A stretch of 64,000 nucleotides of DNA, taken from NCBI RefSeq assembly GCF_030908215.1, contig NZ_JAVFJK010000002.1, forward strand, positions 248,001 to 312,000. The letters run 5' to 3'. The DNA comes from Sinomonas sp. ASV486. GTDB taxonomy: Bacteria; Actinomycetota; Actinomycetes; Actinomycetales; Micrococcaceae. A program made the translations under genes and the position numbers. The notes below the pieces were generated by a model, which was not told the DNA's origin, did no database searches, and saw only the letters and a program-made list of their open reading frames with translations. Below, one piece after another: positions 3,751 to 12,627 of the stretch; positions within the stretch are counted from its first letter, which is position 1, and every line of letters starts with the position of its first letter.

Positions 3751-6648
3751 ATGGCCGGACGGTCAACAGGTAACCGAAGAACCCTCATCCTCCCTCCAAG
3801 CCTGTCCCACGGCCTGCGTCGGCTGTCGCCGCCCAGGCTCGGGCGCAGGCCGTTCGCGATCGTGGCCGCCAGCTGCTCGCTCGCCCTGCTGGGCGGCGGT
3901 ATCGCAGCGGCGTCGACGATCCAGTTCGGCCAGAATCAGGTCGGTTCGCAGTACGAGGACGGGGAGCAGATCTCCTCGAACCAGGTCATCAAGCCGATCG
4001 GCGACCGCCTGATGACGCCGTTCGGCAAGATCATGGGCTCGGTGGTAAGCCCAGACGGCCGTTACCTTGTCGGGACCAGCGCCGACCGGTCAGTCGACCT
4101 GCAGGTCTTCGACCTCAAGACCTACAAGCCGGTGGCCGCAGCGGGTACCCTCTCGGCCACGTCGTTCACGGCGGCCTCCACCAACGCAGGCTACCTGGGC
4201 ATGGCCTACCAGCACATCTCCGACGGCTCGGTCGGACAGGAGGGCCCGGTATTCTCGCCCGACGGCAAATTCCTCTACGCCCCGGTCGCCTCGGGCATCG
4301 TGCGCTACCCGTTCAACCCGGACGGCTCGCTCGGCGCCGGCACCACGATCAGCATCCCAGCTGCGGGCGGCAAGCAGGCGCTGACCGCTGGCATGGCGTT
4401 CTCTCCGGACGGATCAACGCTGTACGCGGCGGTCAACGGCCAGAACACCGTCGTCGCGATCGACTCAGTTGCCGGCACTGTCACCCAGACCTTCAGCACG
4501 GGCATCGCCCCCCGCCAGCTCAAGTTCGTCGGGACCAAGCTGTACGTCTCCAACGAGGGCGGCCACCGGGCCGCCGCCGGCGACACGACGATGGGCTCCT
4601 ACGGCACCCAGGTTCCCGCAGACACCTACCTCGGCACCTCGACGAGCGGCACGGTCAGCGTCATCGACACGGCCAGCGCCGCCGCGCCGGTCTCGTCGAT
4701 CGACGTCCAGCTGCACCCGACCGCGATGCACCTCGACGGCTCGACCCTGTACGTGGCCAACACGAACAGCGACACCGTCTCGGTTATCGACACGGCGACC
4801 AACAAGGTGGTGCAGACCATCGCGACCCAGCCGTGGGCCTCGTCGCAGGTTGGCTACGCGCCGACCGCGATCACCATGCAGGGTGATCACCTGCTGGTTT
4901 CGCTGGGCCGCGCGAACGCCATCGCCGTCTACAAGGTCAACCAGCAGAACCCGAAGGATCCGGCCAGCTACATAGGCCTGCTGCCCACGGACTACTATCC
5001 GGAGAACGTCGCGGCGGTGAACGGCCAGATCGTGGTCACGAACACCCGCGGCATCGACGCGCGCGGCCCGGTGCTGAGCTTCAACAAGGGTCCGGGCACC
5101 ACGGTTGCTACCGGCCACGGAACGCACTCCACCACTGCCTCGCTCACCAAGTTCACGCTGCCGAGCGACGAGCAGATCCAGCAGTACACAGAAACCGTCT
5201 TCGAGCAGAACGGCTGGGACGGAAGCTCCGTCAAGGAGGCGACGGCCGCAGAGGCCGCCAAGATCCCGGCCGTGGCGGTGCCGAAGCGGATCGGCGATCC
5301 GTCGACGATCAAGCACGTTTTCCTGATCGTCAAGGAGAACCGCACCTACGATCAGGTGTACGGCGACATGAAGCAGGGCAACGGTGACGCCTCGCTCGCG
5401 CAGTTCGGCGCGAAGGCCACCCCGAACCAGCACGCGCTGGCCACCCAGTTCGGGCTGTACGACAACACCTACGACATCGGCACGAACTCGGCCGAGGGCC
5501 ACAACTGGATGATGCAGGGCGACAACCCCGCGTACACGGAGACCAGCGCCGGCGAGTACAAGCGCTCCTACGACACCGAAGAGGACGTCCTGGGCCACCA
5601 GCGCTCCGGGTTCCTGTGGACCTCGATCCAGTCCGCGGGCAACACGGCGAGGAACTACGGCGAGTTCGAGTACGGCGAGGGCAAGCCGGCCGGCGCAACC
5701 TGGCAGCAGTACTACTGCGCTGCCACGAGCACGATGGCCGGCGGCGACCCGTCGCAGCTTTTCACCCCCGCCCTCCAGATGCACTCCAGCTCGGCCATCC
5801 CGTCGCTGAACGCGATCGGGGACACGAACGCGGCACCCTTCGACACCGCTGTGCCGGACATCTACCGCTACGAGACGTGGAAGCAGGACTTCGAGAAGAA
5901 CGGTCCGAAGAACTTCCAGATGACCTGGCTCTCGAGTGACCACACGGGCGGCACCGCGGACCCCGAGGCGCAGGTCGCGGACAACGACCTCGCCGTGGGC
6001 AAGATCGTCGACGAGATCTCGCATTCGCCGTACTGGAAGGACTCGGCGATCTTCATCGCTGAGGACGACAGCCAGGACGGCGCCGACCACGTCGACGGCC
6101 ACCGCGCCCCGGTCCAGGTCATCAGCCCGTACGCCGTGCACGGCCAGACCGTCAGCACCTTCTACTCCCAGATCAGCATGGTTCGGACCATCCAGCAGAT
6201 CCTCGGCGCCCAGCCGCTGAACCAGAAGGTCGCCGCGGCCACCCCGATGTTCGATGCGTTCACCAACAAGCCGGACATGACGCCGTACACGGCCGTCCCG
6301 AACCAGGTCCCCCTGACCGAAGGCGTCAAGACCGCCCCGGCCTGCGGCCTCGACACGCTGGGGCAGACGGGTGCCGCCGCGGCCGCGGTCAACACCGCGG
6401 CGGCCCAGGCGGCCGCCGTCCCGGCCTCGATGCAGGACATCGCCGAGGAATGGGACACCTGGTCTGAGCAGCAGCACCTGACGGGCAACGGGGCGAAGGA
6501 AGACTTCGCGAACCCGTACCTGTTCAACCGGTGGACCTGGTACCAGACCCATGGCTGGCAGACCCCGTACCCGGGTGACGCCAAGGTCTACGGCCCGAAC
6601 GACGTGCCGGGCATCGCCGCCGACTCGACCGACCACGCGGACGGCTGA
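3751..6648 (+). CDS. Secreted YncE-type beta-propeller / phosphoesterase fusion protein
   Basis: A 965-residue exported protein. The N-terminus carries arginines followed by a hydrophobic stretch (IVAASCSLALLGGGIAAAST), a signal peptide. Residues of roughly 60-470 hold repeats of the type SPDGRYLV, VFSPDGKFLY, FSPDGSTLY and TVSVIDTATNKVV, a YncE/YVTN seven-bladed propeller. From about residue 525 follows a phosphoesterase domain (AcpA/phospholipase C superfamily) with HVFLIVKENRTYDQVYGDM and the late metal-binding part EDDSQDGADHVDGHR. Such bifunctional proteins are known in actinobacteria, but their substrate is unsettled. ATG 3751 was chosen because GAGGAG lies nine bases before it; the frame is open further upstream without a usable start signal. 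A strong terminator follows at 6702. Confidence 0.85.
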   Translation: MAGRSTGNRRTLILPPSLSHGLRRLSPPRLGRRPFAIVAASCSLALLGGGIAAASTIQFGQNQVGSQYEDGEQISSNQVIKPIGDRLMTPFGKIMGSVVSPDGRYLVGTSADRSVDLQVFDLKTYKPVAAAGTLSATSFTAASTNAGYLGMAYQHISDGSVGQEGPVFSPDGKFLYAPVASGIVRYPFNPDGSLGAGTTISIPAAGGKQALTAGMAFSPDGSTLYAAVNGQNTVVAIDSVAGTVTQTFSTGIAPRQLKFVGTKLYVSNEGGHRAAAGDTTMGSYGTQVPADTYLGTSTSGTVSVIDTASAAAPVSSIDVQLHPTAMHLDGSTLYVANTNSDTVSVIDTATNKVVQTIATQPWASSQVGYAPTAITMQGDHLLVSLGRANAIAVYKVNQQNPKDPASYIGLLPTDYYPENVAAVNGQIVVTNTRGIDARGPVLSFNKGPGTTVATGHGTHSTTASLTKFTLPSDEQIQQYTETVFEQNGWDGSSVKEATAAEAAKIPAVAVPKRIGDPSTIKHVFLIVKENRTYDQVYGDMKQGNGDASLAQFGAKATPNQHALATQFGLYDNTYDIGTNSAEGHNWMMQGDNPAYTETSAGEYKRSYDTEEDVLGHQRSGFLWTSIQSAGNTARNYGEFEYGEGKPAGATWQQYYCAATSTMAGGDPSQLFTPALQMHSSSAIPSLNAIGDTNAAPFDTAVPDIYRYETWKQDFEKNGPKNFQMTWLSSDHTGGTADPEAQVADNDLAVGKIVDEISHSPYWKDSAIFIAEDDSQDGADHVDGHRAPVQVISPYAVHGQTVSTFYSQISMVRTIQQILGAQPLNQKVAAATPMFDAFTNKPDMTPYTAVPNQVPLTEGVKTAPACGLDTLGQTGAAAAAVNTAAAQAAAVPASMQDIAEEWDTWSEQQHLTGNGAKEDFANPYLFNRWTWYQTHGWQTPYPGDAKVYGPNDVPGIAADSTDHADG

Positions 6649-6769: not shown

Positions 6770-7381
6770 CTACTCCAGCGCCACGTCCTGGATGACCTCG
6801 TTGTGGCGGAGGAACCAGGGCTTGAACGGCGGGTCGAATCGGGCGAAGCGAGGCGCGCCTGAAGGTCTCAGCCCGGCTGCGGCCAGGGCGGCCTGGAGTT
6901 CGCGGTTGCGCTTCGCGAAATCAGATTCGGTTCCGCGGCCGGAGAAGCGGGCCACCGCCGCAGTGGAGCCCGGCACGGTCCGGATCTTCACCCGCGGGTC
7001 AGCGGGCACCGGGGCCGTATCCTCGGTCATTCCGGCAGGGAGCACGAATGCGATCACGTACGCGCGCTCGCCGGACTCCCCGGCGACGGCCGGGCCGGCA
7101 TCCTCGGGTCGGTGCTGGAGCACCGGCGCCGTCATCTGCACCTTCTGGGACGGCGGCTTCCGGGCCGACGCGTCGCCCTGGAGCACGGGGGCAGTCATCG
7201 CCAGGGACTGCCGGGCCGTGTTGTTGCCGCTGATGTAGTTGAACAGGTGGCGGAAGGCGGCGTTGCCTGCGCGGTCGAACGTCGCATCGACCCCCACTTC
7301 CGCCACCGTATGCACCGGGTACCGCCGCAGCTCGAAGTCCGCGTACCGCCGCACAAGCTCGTAGGGCTGCTGTTCAGTCAT
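6770..7381 (-). CDS. SOUL-family haem-binding protein
   Basis: A 203-residue soluble protein. The opening YELVRRYADFELRRYPVHTVAEV, then F..LFNYISGNN and MTAPV (twice), are hallmarks of the SOUL/HEBP family, which binds haem or related tetrapyrroles; its function in actinobacteria is not defined. The start is ATG at 7381 because homologues begin with the same MTEQxPYE pattern. A GGGGGAGG lies directly against the start codon, which is unusually close for a ribosome-binding site. The gene is monocistronic and convergent with the phosphoesterase gene. Confidence 0.85.
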   Translation of the reverse strand: MTEQQPYELVRRYADFELRRYPVHTVAEVGVDATFDRAGNAAFRHLFNYISGNNTARQSLAMTAPVLQGDASARKPPSQKVQMTAPVLQHRPEDAGPAVAGESGERAYVIAFVLPAGMTEDTAPVPADPRVKIRTVPGSTAAVARFSGRGTESDFAKRNRELQAALAAAGLRPSGAPRFARFDPPFKPWFLRHNEVIQDVALE

Positions 7382-7551
7382 CCTCCCCCAGACGCTACGC
7401 CCGCGATCGGGCCAAGAACAGGGTCGGGCGGGCTCGGCTCAGCGCTGCGGGCAGGCCGTCGTCGGTGGTCGAATCCCTGTGGGGCGGCCTCGGGCGGCGC
7501 CTGTGGCGCACGACGGCGCGTCCCCGGCTCGGGTTCGCGGCCTCACCAGCG

Positions 7552-7992
7552 CTACGGCTGGCCCTCCTCGACCACCCGCTTGATGTCTGCAAGTACGGGC
7601 GCCCACGCGTTGGCGACCATGTTCTCGGCGTCGTCCTGGGTGGGGCTGTTGCCGTGGGTCAGAGTCAGAGTCGTGGCACCGTCCTGCTCCGTCAGCTCGT
7701 AGGTGACGTGGTGGTAGTTCTCGGGAGAGTCCGCGGTGCCGGCCAACGGGCTCCAATGGGTCGTACTCACCACCCTCGGCGGCTCATACCGCAGGACCGT
7801 GCCCTTGTCCGTATAGGACTGGCCCTTCCACTCGCCGCTCCAAGTCACAGAACCGCCTAGGCGCCAGTCGGCTTCGAGTGTCGTCCCGTGGAGGTACAGC
7901 GAGACGGTCTCGGGGTCGACGAGCGCGTCCCACACGCGCTCGATCGCGGCGTTGATCGTGATCGATGTCTGGGCTGAATAGGTGTCCGCCAT
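7552..7992 (-). CDS. SRPBCC / AHSA1-type protein
   Basis: 146 residues with the START-like fold signature: SITINAAIERVWDALVDPETVSLYLHGTTLEADWRLGGSVTW, then YEPPRVVSTTHWSPL and a C-terminal helix. Members of this family (AHSA1/activator of Hsp90 ATPase homologue 1-like) bind hydrophobic ligands; the ligand here is unknown. The open frame runs far upstream, but the domain starts at MADTYS, so ATG 7992 was chosen. It is divergent from the peptidase gene that starts at 8111. Confidence 0.8.
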   Translation of the reverse strand: MADTYSAQTSITINAAIERVWDALVDPETVSLYLHGTTLEADWRLGGSVTWSGEWKGQSYTDKGTVLRYEPPRVVSTTHWSPLAGTADSPENYHHVTYELTEQDGATTLTLTHGNSPTQDDAENMVANAWAPVLADIKRVVEEGQP

Positions 7993-9061: not shown

Positions 9062-9094
9062 CCTGCACCCGCCGAATCCGCAGGAATCCACCGC

Positions 9095-9558
9095 GTGCTC
9101 CACAACCAGGGCGCGGACCACAACGCGTCCGGCTACCGAGGCTTCACGGCCGACTGCCGCGAGCTGCGGTGCTCCTCCGTCTACTTCCGCAACTCGACCG
9201 GGCGCATCATCGCCGCCCTCTGCATCAACTTCGACGTCAGCACCATCCAGAGCCTGCAGTCCCTCTTCCAGGGGCTGCTGCCGGCGGCCGCGTCGGACTC
9301 CCCTGAGCATCAGAACGAGTTCTTCAGCCGCGACCTCGTAGCCATGATGGACGCGATGGTCACCGAGGCCATCCGCGCGGCAAGCCCGTGGACCAGATTA
9401 GCCGCGACGACCGCATCGCCATCCTGACCAAGCTCGACCGGAAGGGAGTCCTGCAGGTGCGGAAGGGCATTGATCGCGTTGCTGCGCGACTGGGGATTTC
9501 GCGGGTGACGCCGTATTCGTACCTCGACGAGGCGCGGAACCACGCTGAGTGCGAGTGA
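9095..9558 (+). pseudogene. Decayed YheO/DauR-type PAS-HTH regulator
   Basis: The 5' part resembles the YheO PAS domain (SSVYFRNSTGRIIAALCINFDVSTIQSLQS). Near 9380 the reading must shift by one base; in the other frame the matching C-terminal HTH appears at once (KPVDQISRDDRIAILTKLDRKGVLQVRKGIDRVAARLGISRVTPYSYLDEAR) and ends at the TGA 9556-9558. About 80 N-terminal residues expected for the family are also missing. So the gene is 5'-truncated and frameshifted. It borders the low-GC accessory patch and may have been broken when that DNA arrived. Confidence 0.8.
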
Positions 9559-9609
9559 CGGTCGCTCGGCCACAGCTAGCGCCTGAACGGGAAGCGTCCG
9601 CGACCAGCG

Positions 9610-9634
9610 CGCCGAGAACTTACTTATGTCAAGT
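9610..9634 (+). other. dif-like 25-mer (possible Xer or recombinase target)
   Basis: CGCCGA, an 8-base spacer, then TTATGTCAAGT. The right part equals the XerD arm typical of actinobacterial dif sites and the left part equals the core of the XerC arm (CGCCGA). The spacing is one base shorter than in the dif pattern as I recall it. A 6-bp dyad TTACTT/AAGTAA (9620-9636) is centred here. It sits between the broken YheO gene and the low-GC operon. This is a resemblance only; it may be a decayed site used by an integrating element. Confidence 0.35.
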
Positions 9635-9724
9635 AAAAGCTCCGAAAACTGTGGCAGGCGGCGCTTCACCACCACAGCAATCCGGTTTCTATTAGGCTGA
9701 TACGGCTCCGACGCGCCGAGGACC

Positions 9725-10714
9725 CTAGGGCCAAGCAACAGTTCCGCCTAGAAGGTCGCACCGGACGGGAACTGTCTCTCGATACTTGGCTGCGGAAACG
9801 CTATTGACGTCGGCATGGATCATCGGCGCCAACATAATCCCCTGCGAAGACATAATCTTGGCCACCTTTTGCTGGAAACGGGTCCACACGCTCCGTTCTT
9901 CGTCGGTGAGGTCGACGCCATCTGTCAGAACGAAGAACGAGGCTCGGGCCGGCCGAAGGTGGTCTCCATGGATCAAGAGTCGCACCTGCTCCACCTTTGC
10001 GAAAACCTGCTTGGTGTGGCCGTTTTCCATTACGAACTTCCGCAATTCCTCGGGCACTCGTTCAGATAGAATGGGATTCAAAGCAATGCGCCGAAATTTC
10101 TGAGCGATCGTCTCGGCAAACCTAAATCTATCCGCCTCTTTGTCAAATCCAGGAAGCGGCTCCCTGTTTAGAAGGAGCGCCTTTGATGCGGGGAACATAA
10201 GCCTAAGATCGGCAAACCACATGTCATCACCGCTCGTCGGCCGCTCGCCCGAAGGCGTTGCAGGATAGGGTGGAAGCGTCCTCACAAGATATCCAATTTT
10301 ATTTTGCTCGGCTAGCTTCTGGTTGGCTCGACCTTCGATACGAGATTTTTGAATTAGAGGTGCGAACAGGACAAAAGGATGGTGATTTCCTGGAGGGGTC
10401 CCTCCCAAATCACAGGTCTGAGAGCAGATAATCGCACTGCCGTTGGCATTTTGGTCGAAGGCGGGCAGCTCGAATTCTTCTGGGTTTTCGGCGCCAGTCA
10501 CAGGATCGATTCCCGGCGGAATAATCCAGGTAACAGGCACAGCGAGTACCAGGTCCCCCTGATTCCACCGCCCGAGCGCGTCAGCATGCTCGCCCCAGAT
10601 GCAATCAATAGCGTCATTGACGGACCACGGGCGCTGGCCGAGGGGTGCGTCCTGCAGCTCCGGAATGACGGTAGAGGCCGCTCCCTCCCCGGTGGCCGAC
10701 GTTGCTTCACTCAT
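9725..10714 (-). CDS. Unknown protein with CSQTCDL motif, third gene of low-GC operon
   Basis: 329 residues, no signal peptide or membrane segment. I do not recognise a characterised family. Notable parts are QGDLVLAVPVTWIIPP (residues 52-67), SAIICSQTCDLGG with Cys97, Cys101 and Asp102, the HHPFVLFAPLI segment, and a basic C-terminal half. The CxxxCD motif could bind metal or act as a thiol site; this is a guess. Its ATG overlaps the stop of the upstream gene by eight bases (ATGAGTGA), so translation is coupled. Codon use is much more AT-rich than in the neighbours, a sign of transfer. It may be a partner or effector in a mobile toxin-antitoxin or defence module. Confidence 0.75.
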   Translation of the reverse strand: MSEATSATGEGAASTVIPELQDAPLGQRPWSVNDAIDCIWGEHADALGRWNQGDLVLAVPVTWIIPPGIDPVTGAENPEEFELPAFDQNANGSAIICSQTCDLGGTPPGNHHPFVLFAPLIQKSRIEGRANQKLAEQNKIGYLVRTLPPYPATPSGERPTSGDDMWFADLRLMFPASKALLLNREPLPGFDKEADRFRFAETIAQKFRRIALNPILSERVPEELRKFVMENGHTKQVFAKVEQVRLLIHGDHLRPARASFFVLTDGVDLTDEERSVWTRFQQKVAKIMSSQGIMLAPMIHADVNSVSAAKYRETVPVRCDLLGGTVAWP

Positions 10715-11393
10715 GACTCGAGATGTTACGCCGCGTCACCTCGACAACACCCCTAGTGGTAGGTCCAACGCGCCGCTTCTGCTTCTGGCGCCCAGGTTCC
10801 TGCTCGGGCTCGGGCTCGGACTCGGGCCCATTGAAAGGTGTGGCGAGTCCACTACCATCCCCGAAATCTGGCGCAATAGGCCTCGGCCTAGGATAATTCC
10901 GCGTGGCCCAATCAAGTTCGAGGAGAACCAATTGGTCAATGTTGCCAGCGTCAAAGAGTGCCTGTGCTTGTGACTCCGAGTTGAACCAAGCTGCAAGATT
11001 CGGGTGGGCGTGCGCCATATAATGAATGGCCTCGGTCATAGGCCACAGTTTTCCTAGGCTCTGCGAGCGGGCCCTGTGGTTTGCGGTCTTCCATCCATAA
11101 TAGGTCCGAGGTTTTATACCGACGGCCGCCAATACTCTCTCATTTGAGATGCCCAAGAGGAATGCCACATGCTCGACTGCCTGGGCTGGCTGTCGTGGGA
11201 AAACGTATTCGCTTTCGGCAAAAGGGTGGACAGGCAGATCGTCCCACCATGCGATAATTCTTCCAACCATTGTCGAGACTGGATCGGAATTGAGGCTTGT
11301 TTGCGAGGAACGCTTGAAGAAGGGGTCGAAGTAATCAGAGATACCGAAAACGTCCGTCGTCTCTACCCCAGAGTGAGCAATTACCATGCTCAT
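10707..11393 (-). CDS. HTH protein with MbcA/ParS/Xre-antitoxin-like region
   Basis: 228 residues. Residues 76-102 form a helix-turn-helix-like segment (VAFLLGISNERVLAAVGIKPRTYYGWK). Residues 115-160 (KLWPMTEAIHYMAHAHPNLAAWFNSES...) resemble the MbcA/ParS/Xre antitoxin C-terminal region (DUF2384), although the usual Gly-Pro loop is not clear. The tail (175-228) is acidic and then basic low complexity. It overlaps the upstream gene by four bases (ATGA) and the downstream gene by eight. A DNA-binding role, probably autoregulation, is inferred. No RES-domain toxin follows, so it is not a standard Res-Xre pair. Confidence 0.65.
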   Translation of the reverse strand: MSMVIAHSGVETTDVFGISDYFDPFFKRSSQTSLNSDPVSTMVGRIIAWWDDLPVHPFAESEYVFPRQPAQAVEHVAFLLGISNERVLAAVGIKPRTYYGWKTANHRARSQSLGKLWPMTEAIHYMAHAHPNLAAWFNSESQAQALFDAGNIDQLVLLELDWATRNYPRPRPIAPDFGDGSGLATPFNGPESEPEPEQEPGRQKQKRRVGPTTRGVVEVTRRNISSHE

Positions 11394-12247
11394 TGCAGAT
11401 TCTCCGTCCTTGCTAGGTCAAGCGGACCTAAGTCTGCCAAATAGTTATCTGAAAGCACATGCGCAAACAAGGCTAGGGCAGTCCGATTTAGCTGACGCAT
11501 CATGTTTGCGCATAGTACTTCGTCGTAAACAAAAGTTGCTTCTCGAAAGACGTCTAGATCGATCAGGAAGCTGTAGAGACTGCGCGCTCCGGGCTCCTGG
11601 AAAAAGCCACTCTGGATTCTCGCTGTGGCAGTTGAATCAAGCCGGAGCTGGGTCTGCTGATGCTGGCCGACGACGAGCTCGCTGAGGCCGCCAGCAAGCG
11701 GGCCTGCAAAGTCTTCGCGAATATGCTCTTTCCAAAATTGTGGTTGCAATGCCCCCGGATCGGACAGGCGATTGATGAATCTCAGTCCGACACGCTGAAT
11801 TCTCGATACTCTCGTAGCAGCCGTAAAGAGCGGGAGTATTTCCTTCAGCCGGTCGCCCAAACTCGCGCTGTACCGTTCATATTTCGAAGTCTGGACGACC
11901 ACAGTCGACGGCAATAGTGTGAACAGGAGACTCTTGTCAGCCGTTGCCAAGACCCAGCCGCGCTGCTCTTCAACCGTCTGGGAGGCACCCTGGGGTCCAA
12001 CCGTCACGCTAACGACGCTCTGGGTGTGCTTCTCAAACACCGGCAATGAATCCCGGCCGAGCCCCACCCATATAGCCTCGGCTTCGCGTTCGGGAAGTTC
12101 CGAGCGATCGGAGGAGAACCGCACCTCGCCGATGGCTGCTTCAAGATGGGTCCGTTCCAGCGTGACCGGCCCCATACCTCGGATTCCGCCCAGAGGCTCA
12201 TCCCACTCATCGCTGTCGACACGGATGCCGTTGGTCTCGATACGCAT
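11390..12247 (-). CDS. TIGR04255-like family protein, first gene of low-GC operon
   Basis: 285 residues, soluble. The pattern LERTHLEAAIGEVRFS near the start, VVQTSKYERYSASLGDRLKEILPLF, RIQRVGLRFINRLSDP in the middle and a C-terminal domain ending SLYSFLIDLDVF fits the sporadic TIGR04255 family, whose function is unknown. ATG 12247 was chosen because GGGAGG lies six bases before it; the frame is open to 12319 but has no such signal there. It is followed with a 4-base overlap by the HTH/ParS-like gene. The patchy distribution known for the family and the low GC point to horizontal transfer. Confidence 0.65.
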   Translation of the reverse strand: MRIETNGIRVDSDEWDEPLGGIRGMGPVTLERTHLEAAIGEVRFSSDRSELPEREAEAIWVGLGRDSLPVFEKHTQSVVSVTVGPQGASQTVEEQRGWVLATADKSLLFTLLPSTVVVQTSKYERYSASLGDRLKEILPLFTAATRVSRIQRVGLRFINRLSDPGALQPQFWKEHIREDFAGPLAGGLSELVVGQHQQTQLRLDSTATARIQSGFFQEPGARSLYSFLIDLDVFREATFVYDEVLCANMMRQLNRTALALFAHVLSDNYLADLGPLDLARTENLQ

Positions 12248-12284: not shown

Positions 12285-12627
12285 TCGGATGTCCATGATC
12301 TCTCACGATCTCGCTCCATGGCTAGACCTCGTCGTCATGATGCATCTTGGGTCCGACAGAACAGGGTGCCCGAGCCGAGCTGGTGATCTCGATGTCGTCT
12401 GTCTAGGCCAGCGGGGTTACCGGCGGCGTCCTTACCTGTCCTTTACAGCGGGTCGTCGCCAGGCCTTTCCGACGGCGCTGGCGAGGTCAGTCACGCCCGC
12501 GCCCACGCCCGCGAAGCGAACCCCTAAGAAAGACCGAGGACGTACTAACCCTCGATGTTCGCCCGACGACGACGCGAGAGCCGATGCCCGGCGCCCGGTT
12601 CCTCCTCAGCTCTCCCACCGCCTCTCC
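12285..12627. other. Intergenic stretch, nothing recognised
   Basis: Divergent region between the low-GC operon and the small gene at 12628. It must hold the operon promoter on the minus strand. I see no clear -35/-10 pair and no supported gene. Confidence 0.4.

Follow-up and report, generated by a model that had tools for sequence, protein, structure and literature searches.

Published work on three-part toxin-antitoxin systems describes toxin-antitoxin-chaperone (TAC) systems, in which a SecB-like chaperone serves HigBA, MqsRA or HicAB pairs (PMC5105189), and among them CmdTAC, whose chaperone senses a phage capsid protein (PMC11618068). A 2009 survey of type 2 systems predicts distant MazF relatives, a new family of MazF antitoxins and three-component systems (PMC2701414). 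The open-licence PubMed Central (PMC) literature also holds HipBST, KKP and others, and none of the three-part systems among the matches listed is named with TIGR04255; TIGR04255, a curated family to which no function has been assigned, was absent by name from the 5.39 million open-licence PMC papers searched. Here we describe a three-gene operon of Sinomonas sp. ASV486, which lies in a stretch of 64,000 nucleotides (positions 248,001 to 312,000 of contig NZ_JAVFJK010000002.1, hereafter the window) and encodes a TIGR04255 protein, a helix-turn-helix (HTH) protein (P0002) and a protein with a QTCD motif (P0003), which we call the QxCD protein. Judging from the predicted structure and from comparison of genomes, we read this trio, with a probability of roughly 0.6, as a mobile tripartite toxin-antitoxin-like module whose third gene would encode a MazF/CcdB-fold toxin of a new QxCD subfamily. 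Its parts are as follows, in window coordinates.

11390..12247, minus strand: first gene, TIGR04255 family protein (NCBIfam TIGR04255), 285 amino acids, putative constant partner
10707..11393, minus strand: second gene, HTH protein P0002, 228 amino acids, candidate antitoxin or autorepressor (weak PF20432 match)
9725..10714, minus strand: third gene, QxCD (CSQTCD) protein P0003, 329 amino acids, candidate toxin (predicted MazF/CcdB fold)
10082..10585, minus strand: MazF/CcdB-like domain, residues 44-211 of the third protein, from VIA-align of the predicted model
10409..10420, minus strand: QTCD motif, residues 99-102 of the third protein, T, C and D invariant in 21/21 aligned sequences
9731..10069, minus strand: C-terminal extension, residues 216-328 of the third protein, absent from short relatives of about 185 amino acids
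12264..12284, minus strand: operator-like tandem repeat CTGCTACTTT, two copies with an 11-base period, upstream of the TIGR04255 gene

The trio resembles several described systems in part. As with MazF/PemK (PF02452) and CcdB, a barrel fold is predicted and a DNA-binding-type partner is encoded alongside; unlike them, the QxCD protein has no sequence-level match to these families, carries a TCD...D...K...R signature in place of the MazF catalytic threonine, possesses an extra C-terminal domain and is encoded by the third gene of three. COG5654-Xre, the RES/DUF2384 toxin-antitoxin system, has an Xre-like HTH partner, as the trio probably does, but here neither a ParS/MbcA domain nor a RES toxin was among the matches. 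TAC systems, CmdTAC included, likewise comprise three genes with a toxin-like protein and an HTH partner and join a constant partner to exchangeable toxin-antitoxin pairs; there the constant component is a SecB-like chaperone, whereas here it would be the TIGR04255 protein, the toxin folds differ, and the constant gene stands first. Panacea-type hyperpromiscuous antitoxins reportedly also combine one protein type with many toxin types, but the Panacea domain belongs to the antitoxin, whereas here the constant protein is separate and the middle gene varies with the effector (PMC8832971, PMC10440598).

Results

Predicted fold and conserved residues of the third protein

A preliminary description of this DNA, made from the sequence alone, had seen no recognised enzymatic domain in the three proteins. 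For P0003 this held in the sequence libraries, where Pfam, NCBIfam and PADLOC gave no match at E <= 1 and PHROGs and PDB sequences gave nothing usable, but not at the level of fold. An AlphaFold2 model built from 21 sequences (pLDDT 80.8) was compared with known structures, and the top 20 PDB chains retrieved by Foldseek were all of the MazF family by title (best E 5.1e-4; four chains at E <= 0.001). VIA-align gave Z scores of up to 9.8 to MazF-mt3 (104 of 107 chain residues aligned, root-mean-square deviation 2.9) and of 9.5 to CcdB (2vub_B, 96/96 residues), and 49 of the 50 listed rows were MazF, CcdB, Kid or similarly titled toxins or endoribonucleases, within residues 41-212. The third protein is predicted, on this model, to contain an SH3-like barrel of the MazF/CcdB type at residues 44-211, and the succession QGD..., [ST]QTCD, ...PV, ADLR...EK in the alignment appears to resemble the strand order of MazF. 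The libraries searched gave P0003 no housekeeping family, a match to which the preliminary description would have counted against its own proposal, and a housekeeping role was dropped; P0003 and 20 relatives matched no RES model either.

Although the aligned relatives share only 16-34% identity with P0003, T100, C101, D102, P113, D169, K178 and R209 are invariant in all 21 sequences, and invariance at such divergence suggests an active site. The motif itself had first been written as CxxxCD and has to be corrected, as the conserved form is [ST]QTCD and the first cysteine occurs in one of the 21 sequences, P0003 itself. The C-terminal domain of P0003 reached a VIA-align Z of 7.9 to a MafB2/MafI2 chain, from which we draw no reading. 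The short QxCD branch, which lacks this domain, is clearly related to the long one (hhalign P 6.5e-12); its genes accompany other middle genes and also occur in three contigs of a viral collection. Scans of viral contigs with three long-QxCD alignments yielded no confirmed relative. HPCT proteins, another type of TIGR04255 partner (see below), were considered as QxCD relatives and set aside, the hhalign P of 0.021 over 113 columns being suggestive only.

Conservation of the operon in other genomes

We searched 396 genomes of the phylum, 98 relatives and a genus sample of 15 that included the window's own genome. Used as a single query, P0003 found a match in one of the 98 relatives, namely the window's own genome, and strain G501 of the same species had neither a QxCD match nor TIGR04255. 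The same query recovered relatives on a plasmid of Kocuria rosea and in three further genomes of the 396, and in 4/4 of these loci the TIGR04255, HTH and QxCD genes follow one another in this order on one strand, the incomplete PLSDB table lacking the middle gene of the Kocuria plasmid. The profile of 21 QxCD sequences (A10) matched nine of the 396 genomes, the window's own included, and in eight of the nine the QxCD gene adjoins a TIGR04255 gene, a count that leans toward the trio since the profile was built from TIGR04255-anchored loci. The congener G002 carries a divergent full trio elsewhere in its genome (L195; TIGR04255 gene at G002:C1:23736-24482, reverse strand), with 4-base overlaps at both junctions and hidden Markov model (HMM) E-values of 1.4e-30, 9.6e-19 and 3.5e-19. 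This trio was missed by the single-sequence search with P0003, so that such searches underestimate how frequent the trio is.

The search anchored on TIGR04255 gave 48 named loci, 28 of which carry a long QxCD gene. These include loci of Rhodococcus, Arthrobacter, Mycolicibacterium, Streptomyces and Winogradskya, together with metagenome-assembled genomes labelled Rhizobiales, Deltaproteobacteria, Gammaproteobacteria and Fibrobacteres, in which gene order and strand are as in Actinomycetota; seven of the 28 represent one near-identical mycobacterial element (L081-L086, L090), and in L090 and L091 the third gene is split over two open reading frames (ORFs). A long QxCD gene accompanies TIGR04255 at 38 loci in all (the 28 and ten others; L048 and L100, both on a contig of length 168592, are apparently one contig). 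By HMM, 36 of these also have an HTH gene, and L119 is a 37th that has one. The adjacency of the three genes in other genomes, which the preliminary description had proposed as a check, was thus found, the homologues mostly keeping their neighbourhood rather than lying apart.

Operon layout and the two partner proteins

The account that the preliminary description gave of three overlapping, AT-rich genes on the minus strand was likewise accurate in coordinates, overlaps and composition. The TIGR04255 and HTH genes overlap by 4 bases and the HTH and QxCD genes by 8 bases, and the TIGR04255 gene has a further open start at 12319. The guanine-plus-cytosine (GC) content of the trio is 0.550-0.564 and its GC content at third codon positions (GC3) 0.585-0.612, whereas five neighbouring genes have a GC3 of 0.756-0.944. 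Of all 2,520-base segments of the 64 kb window, taken in steps of 60 bases, the eight with the lowest GC content start at 9421-9841.

The identity proposed for the first protein was confirmed by the NCBIfam scan, in which TIGR04255 matched residues 35-273 with E 4.2e-22 and 79.2 bits, exceeding the curated cut-off of 30 bits. Its AlphaFold model (pLDDT 89.5) had no Foldseek match at E <= 0.001 and gave no convincing fold. With VIA-align the best Z was 7.4, to the arginine kinase McsB, and creatine and arginine kinases and TBP-like repeats were tied below; these scores are within the range typical of chance, and a kinase or TBP-like fold was rejected. SecB was not among the VIA-align matches listed for this model, an absence that excludes nothing.

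The second protein had earlier been labelled HTH/ParS-like. P0002 matched the Xre-like HTH family PF20432 weakly (17.8 bits, below the cut-off of 25.8), and the match is clearer in its family: of the 22 aligned members, 16 reach E <= 1 with this model (best 2.2e-6), and P0002 is one of them. Xre antitoxins of the DUF2384/ParS-MbcA kind have a C-terminal ParS/MbcA toxin-binding domain and a RES toxin as partner. Among the 22 Pfam families matched by the 22 HTH members at E <= 1 there was no ParS/MbcA (DUF2384-type) domain, and the ParS/DUF2384 antitoxin label was dropped for P0002 and its alignment. By eye, a hydrophobic N-terminal stretch is present in the middle HTH proteins of L002 (5343-5957), L056 (5785-6489), L096 (7663-8538) and L097 (7674-8531), and in such loci a membrane link of the antitoxin candidate is possible.

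The CTGCTACTTT repeat consists of perfect copies of a 10-base unit and ends 16 bases before the start codon of the TIGR04255 gene. A direct-repeat test, devised after this repeat had been noticed (within 90 bases upstream, shuffle P < 0.05), detected tandem repeats with a period of 10-12 bases in 9 of 37 loci of the HTH class and in none of the 31 from other classes (one-sided P 0.0025, or 0.0046 when the window is left out). The rows were hand-picked, the 31 being the ones among 36 listed non-HTH loci that have 90 bases of upstream sequence. L078 and L088 are related to each other, and L068, in the set without HTH, has an HTH ORF farther downstream. The sequence of the repeat varies between loci, as it should if every HTH protein has an operator of its own. 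A self-regulated module had been proposed before, and the operator-like repeat, on sequence grounds, fits autoregulation by the HTH protein.

Other operons led by TIGR04255

TIGR04255 was present in 31 of the 396 genomes of the phylum at 36 places, and the 35 with flanks were grouped by HMM and inspected by eye, the one left out being a 147-base fragment in G323. Their partners were long QxCD (9), short QxCD (3), HPCT (4), an SHDC variant recognised by eye (2; L052 and L056), HEPN-type (2), a WNGY pair (6, with W3 as the third gene in 5), DUF7689 (1), a marginal HicA-like gene (1), HTH only (1), none (5) and a contig end (1). In the 48 named loci we counted long QxCD (28), short QxCD (2), HEPN-type (9), PIN-type (2), DUF7689 (1), HTH only (2), none (2) and contig end (2), and five viral-collection loci found with the TIGR04255 alignment had short QxCD (3), HPCT (1) or none (1). 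The HMMs of the classes (HEPN, PIN, DUF7689, WNGY, W3, HPCT, short and long QxCD, HTH) were partly built from loci they label, and, as they share loci with the labelled set, the counts are groupings and no independent detections. Partner names other than PIN, HEPN and DUF7689 were coined in this analysis.

With respect to the labels, PIN was assigned to L123 (Pfam E 3.7e-5, over the cut-off), while the gene of L105, which had no Pfam match, was placed with it through an HMM made from the two. Six of 11 HEPN-type members match PF05168 at E <= 0.01, and L118 matches DUF7689 at E 2.9e-23. HicA in L057 (E 0.045) fell below the cut-off and was not accepted. The type of the middle gene changes along with the third gene. 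As TIGR04255 leads operons that end in varied small proteins, it looks like the constant partner of exchangeable effectors; to judge from these sequences, it resembles a fixed component of three-gene operons, the last gene of which often encodes a protein of toxin-like fold.

Single loci of this set showed further features. On the Thermus brockianus plasmid pTB1 (L003, 5890-7584) TIGR04255 is followed by a gene of about 180 amino acids and an ORF that is HEPN-type by eye (7192-7584) and absent from the PLSDB table, a case of the HEPN class of this operon type, with an Argonaute PAZ gene and cas6 nearby. In L065-L069 and L041 TIGR04255 is followed by a 'WxGxGA...GGVQxEW' protein and mostly by a protein of about 150 amino acids (third gene grouped in 5/6); the single example of WNGY and of W3 that was searched had no Pfam match. 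The third gene after TIGR04255 in L102 (8382-8861) reads by eye, from its DTGS motif, like a retropepsin-type aspartic protease and had no Pfam match. An S-adenosylmethionine methyltransferase-like gene, again by eye, adjoins TIGR04255 on the opposite strand in L043, L045 and L046.

Mobility, selection and chromosomal context

The trio is carried by a MOBP plasmid of Kocuria with a relaxase, and near other trios we noticed a TrwC relaxase and an integrase (L009), a pSAM2-type replication initiator and an integrase (L076), integrases (L082, L099) and a resolvase (L079); these mobility and defence neighbours come from 110 ORFs of 16 loci, of which seven picked by eye (5 loci) and two in L009 were scanned with Pfam. 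The seven mycobacterial loci and L007 (genome G483) have up to 12.0 kb in common, at 96.8-99.8% identity to L007 (the locus L085 ends after 8.0 kb and the match to L090 is in two pieces), and the shared element carries an integrase, the trio and metabolic cargo. Such identity indicates that this element has spread recently. The conserved order, the plasmid and the integrases nearby bear out the earlier view of a mobile three-gene module with the third gene as candidate effector. For each of the three genes dN/dS (NG86) was 0.06-0.24 in 6/6 pairs of relatives, drawn from seven loci with the window copy outside and with some dS > 1, which indicates purifying selection on all three genes in those relatives.

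The trio segment starts directly after a broken gene, which lies in its context and is not part of the module:

9093..9559, plus strand: yheO remnant, 5'-truncated and frame-shifted (PF08348, E 1.7e-10)

Homology of the remnant to G002 and G008 covers 9093 to 9573-9576, its 5' part is missing, and its two halves lie in different frames, so the broken neighbour that the preliminary description had mentioned is real. To the right of the trio, window 12687-12927 matches part of contig 2 of genome G009 at 91% identity, and the DNA on that side may stem from a different replicon.

We read the corresponding site gene by gene in three relatives, and three more regions were aligned only. In G501 the site is conserved at window 7503-7889 and again from 13771 on, and about 10 kb in the middle differ. 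This middle part encodes a restriction-type protein of the Mrr/ResIII kind (E 8.2e-102 to PADLOC REase_MTase_IIG, covering no more than the N-terminal part of that model), a HAD protein (E 1.7e-57 to the candidate system PDC-S34) and a thymidylate kinase (E 1.8e-19 to PDC-M51B), as well as a metallophosphoesterase and a protein resembling thymidylate synthase. The site of G002 carries a SIR2-like gene together with an ATPase of SMC type that matches LmuB of Lamassu (E 1.5e-32); in G008 we saw a DUF2971 gene alone, which had no PADLOC match. Defence-type genes at the site in two of three relatives imply that the trio occupies an exchange site, in keeping with the island-like patch noticed before. 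The site (L178, 6500-17600; L180, 5800-15600) is a candidate defence hotspot of the genus.

Discussion

The conserved order on mobile DNA and the predicted MazF fold together make it probable that the set consists of a toxin with two controlling partners. We propose that the QxCD protein, as the candidate toxin, would probably cut RNA or block another essential target; that the middle HTH protein would be the specific, labile antitoxin and would repress the operon through the tandem repeat upstream of the first gene; and that the TIGR04255 protein, a constant partner acting as chaperone, co-antitoxin or sensor, would be required to hold the toxin inactive. If the module were lost, or an infection signalled, the complex might then break up and release the toxin, which would arrest growth. 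Toxicity, target, neutraliser, trigger and any benefit in defence are what we infer here. The earlier guess of a toxin-antitoxin or anti-phage function has in this way become more specific and is not proven; the module itself is real, conserved and mobile.

Several observations weigh against the toxin-antitoxin-like reading, and the alternatives draw on some of them. None of the 21 aligned QxCD members matches PF02452 (MazF/PemK) at E <= 5, and hhalign of the P0003 family against MazF gave only P 0.028 over 30 columns. The catalytic threonine of MazF, which follows the conserved proline, is invariant as T46 in 13 aligned MazF sequences, and the corresponding position 121 is I, R, V, Y, F or L in 21/21 QxCD sequences and never threonine. 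RNase activity therefore does not follow from the fold, and structure matches without PF02452 or the catalytic threonine describe a MazF/CcdB-like fold, yet no member of the PemK/MazF family. This absence, and a solitary QDCD gene on the reverse strand of L193 in G308 (4323-5234), beside an ABC-F type ATPase gene (by eye) and with no TIGR04255 or HTH partner seen beside it, would suit a third protein that has the fold but is no toxin and instead binds nucleic acid or protein and helps to regulate its carrier element. We consider this rather improbable, since the seven invariant residues suggest an active site and alternative third genes include PIN and HEPN domains. Also to be set against our reading are the partly weak PIN, HEPN and HicA labels, the TIGR04255 genes of L043, L045, L046 and L054 (genus of G483), which have no grouped partner, and the 28 of 37 HTH-class loci, mycobacterial loci among them, that have no significant tandem repeat.

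No protein of the trio matches PADLOC 2.0.0 at E <= 1, and this lack counts as well against a dedicated anti-phage system, in which TIGR04255 would sense a phage product, the HTH protein control expression and the QxCD effector become active after triggering. The site with its defence-type genes in the same-species strain and one congener speaks for such a system, as do a restriction enzyme of type ISP that lies 206 bases beyond the trio of L080 and the precedent of CmdTAC, described as a three-gene toxin-antitoxin-chaperone defence (PMC11618068); for several copies, however, inspection of the plasmid or element by eye showed no obvious defence genes nearby, and on balance we hold an anti-phage system of this kind to be unlikely, if the least so of the alternatives. 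That the three genes are neighbours merely through co-transfer on the same elements, with unrelated functions, might be argued from the several partner types of TIGR04255, but order and strand are kept across Actinomycetota, Gammaproteobacteria, Rhizobiales, Deltaproteobacteria and Fibrobacteres and all three genes are under purifying selection in the relatives tested, which renders this explanation very improbable.

Beyond the toxin-antitoxin-like reading of the trio itself, we tentatively suggest, at somewhat less than even odds, that the tripartite toxin-antitoxin systems of a widespread and so far undescribed class have TIGR04255 in common, which would serve unrelated effectors (the new MazF-fold subfamily, PIN, HEPN, HPCT, DUF7689 and others) by way of an effector-matched middle protein, independently of SecB and with phage sensing as its likely role. 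Should many toxin-like effectors share TIGR04255 as their control protein, many unannotated genes would become interpretable at once. A branch of the MazF fold with a different putative active site would become testable, and there would be a second, non-SecB route to three-part toxin systems.

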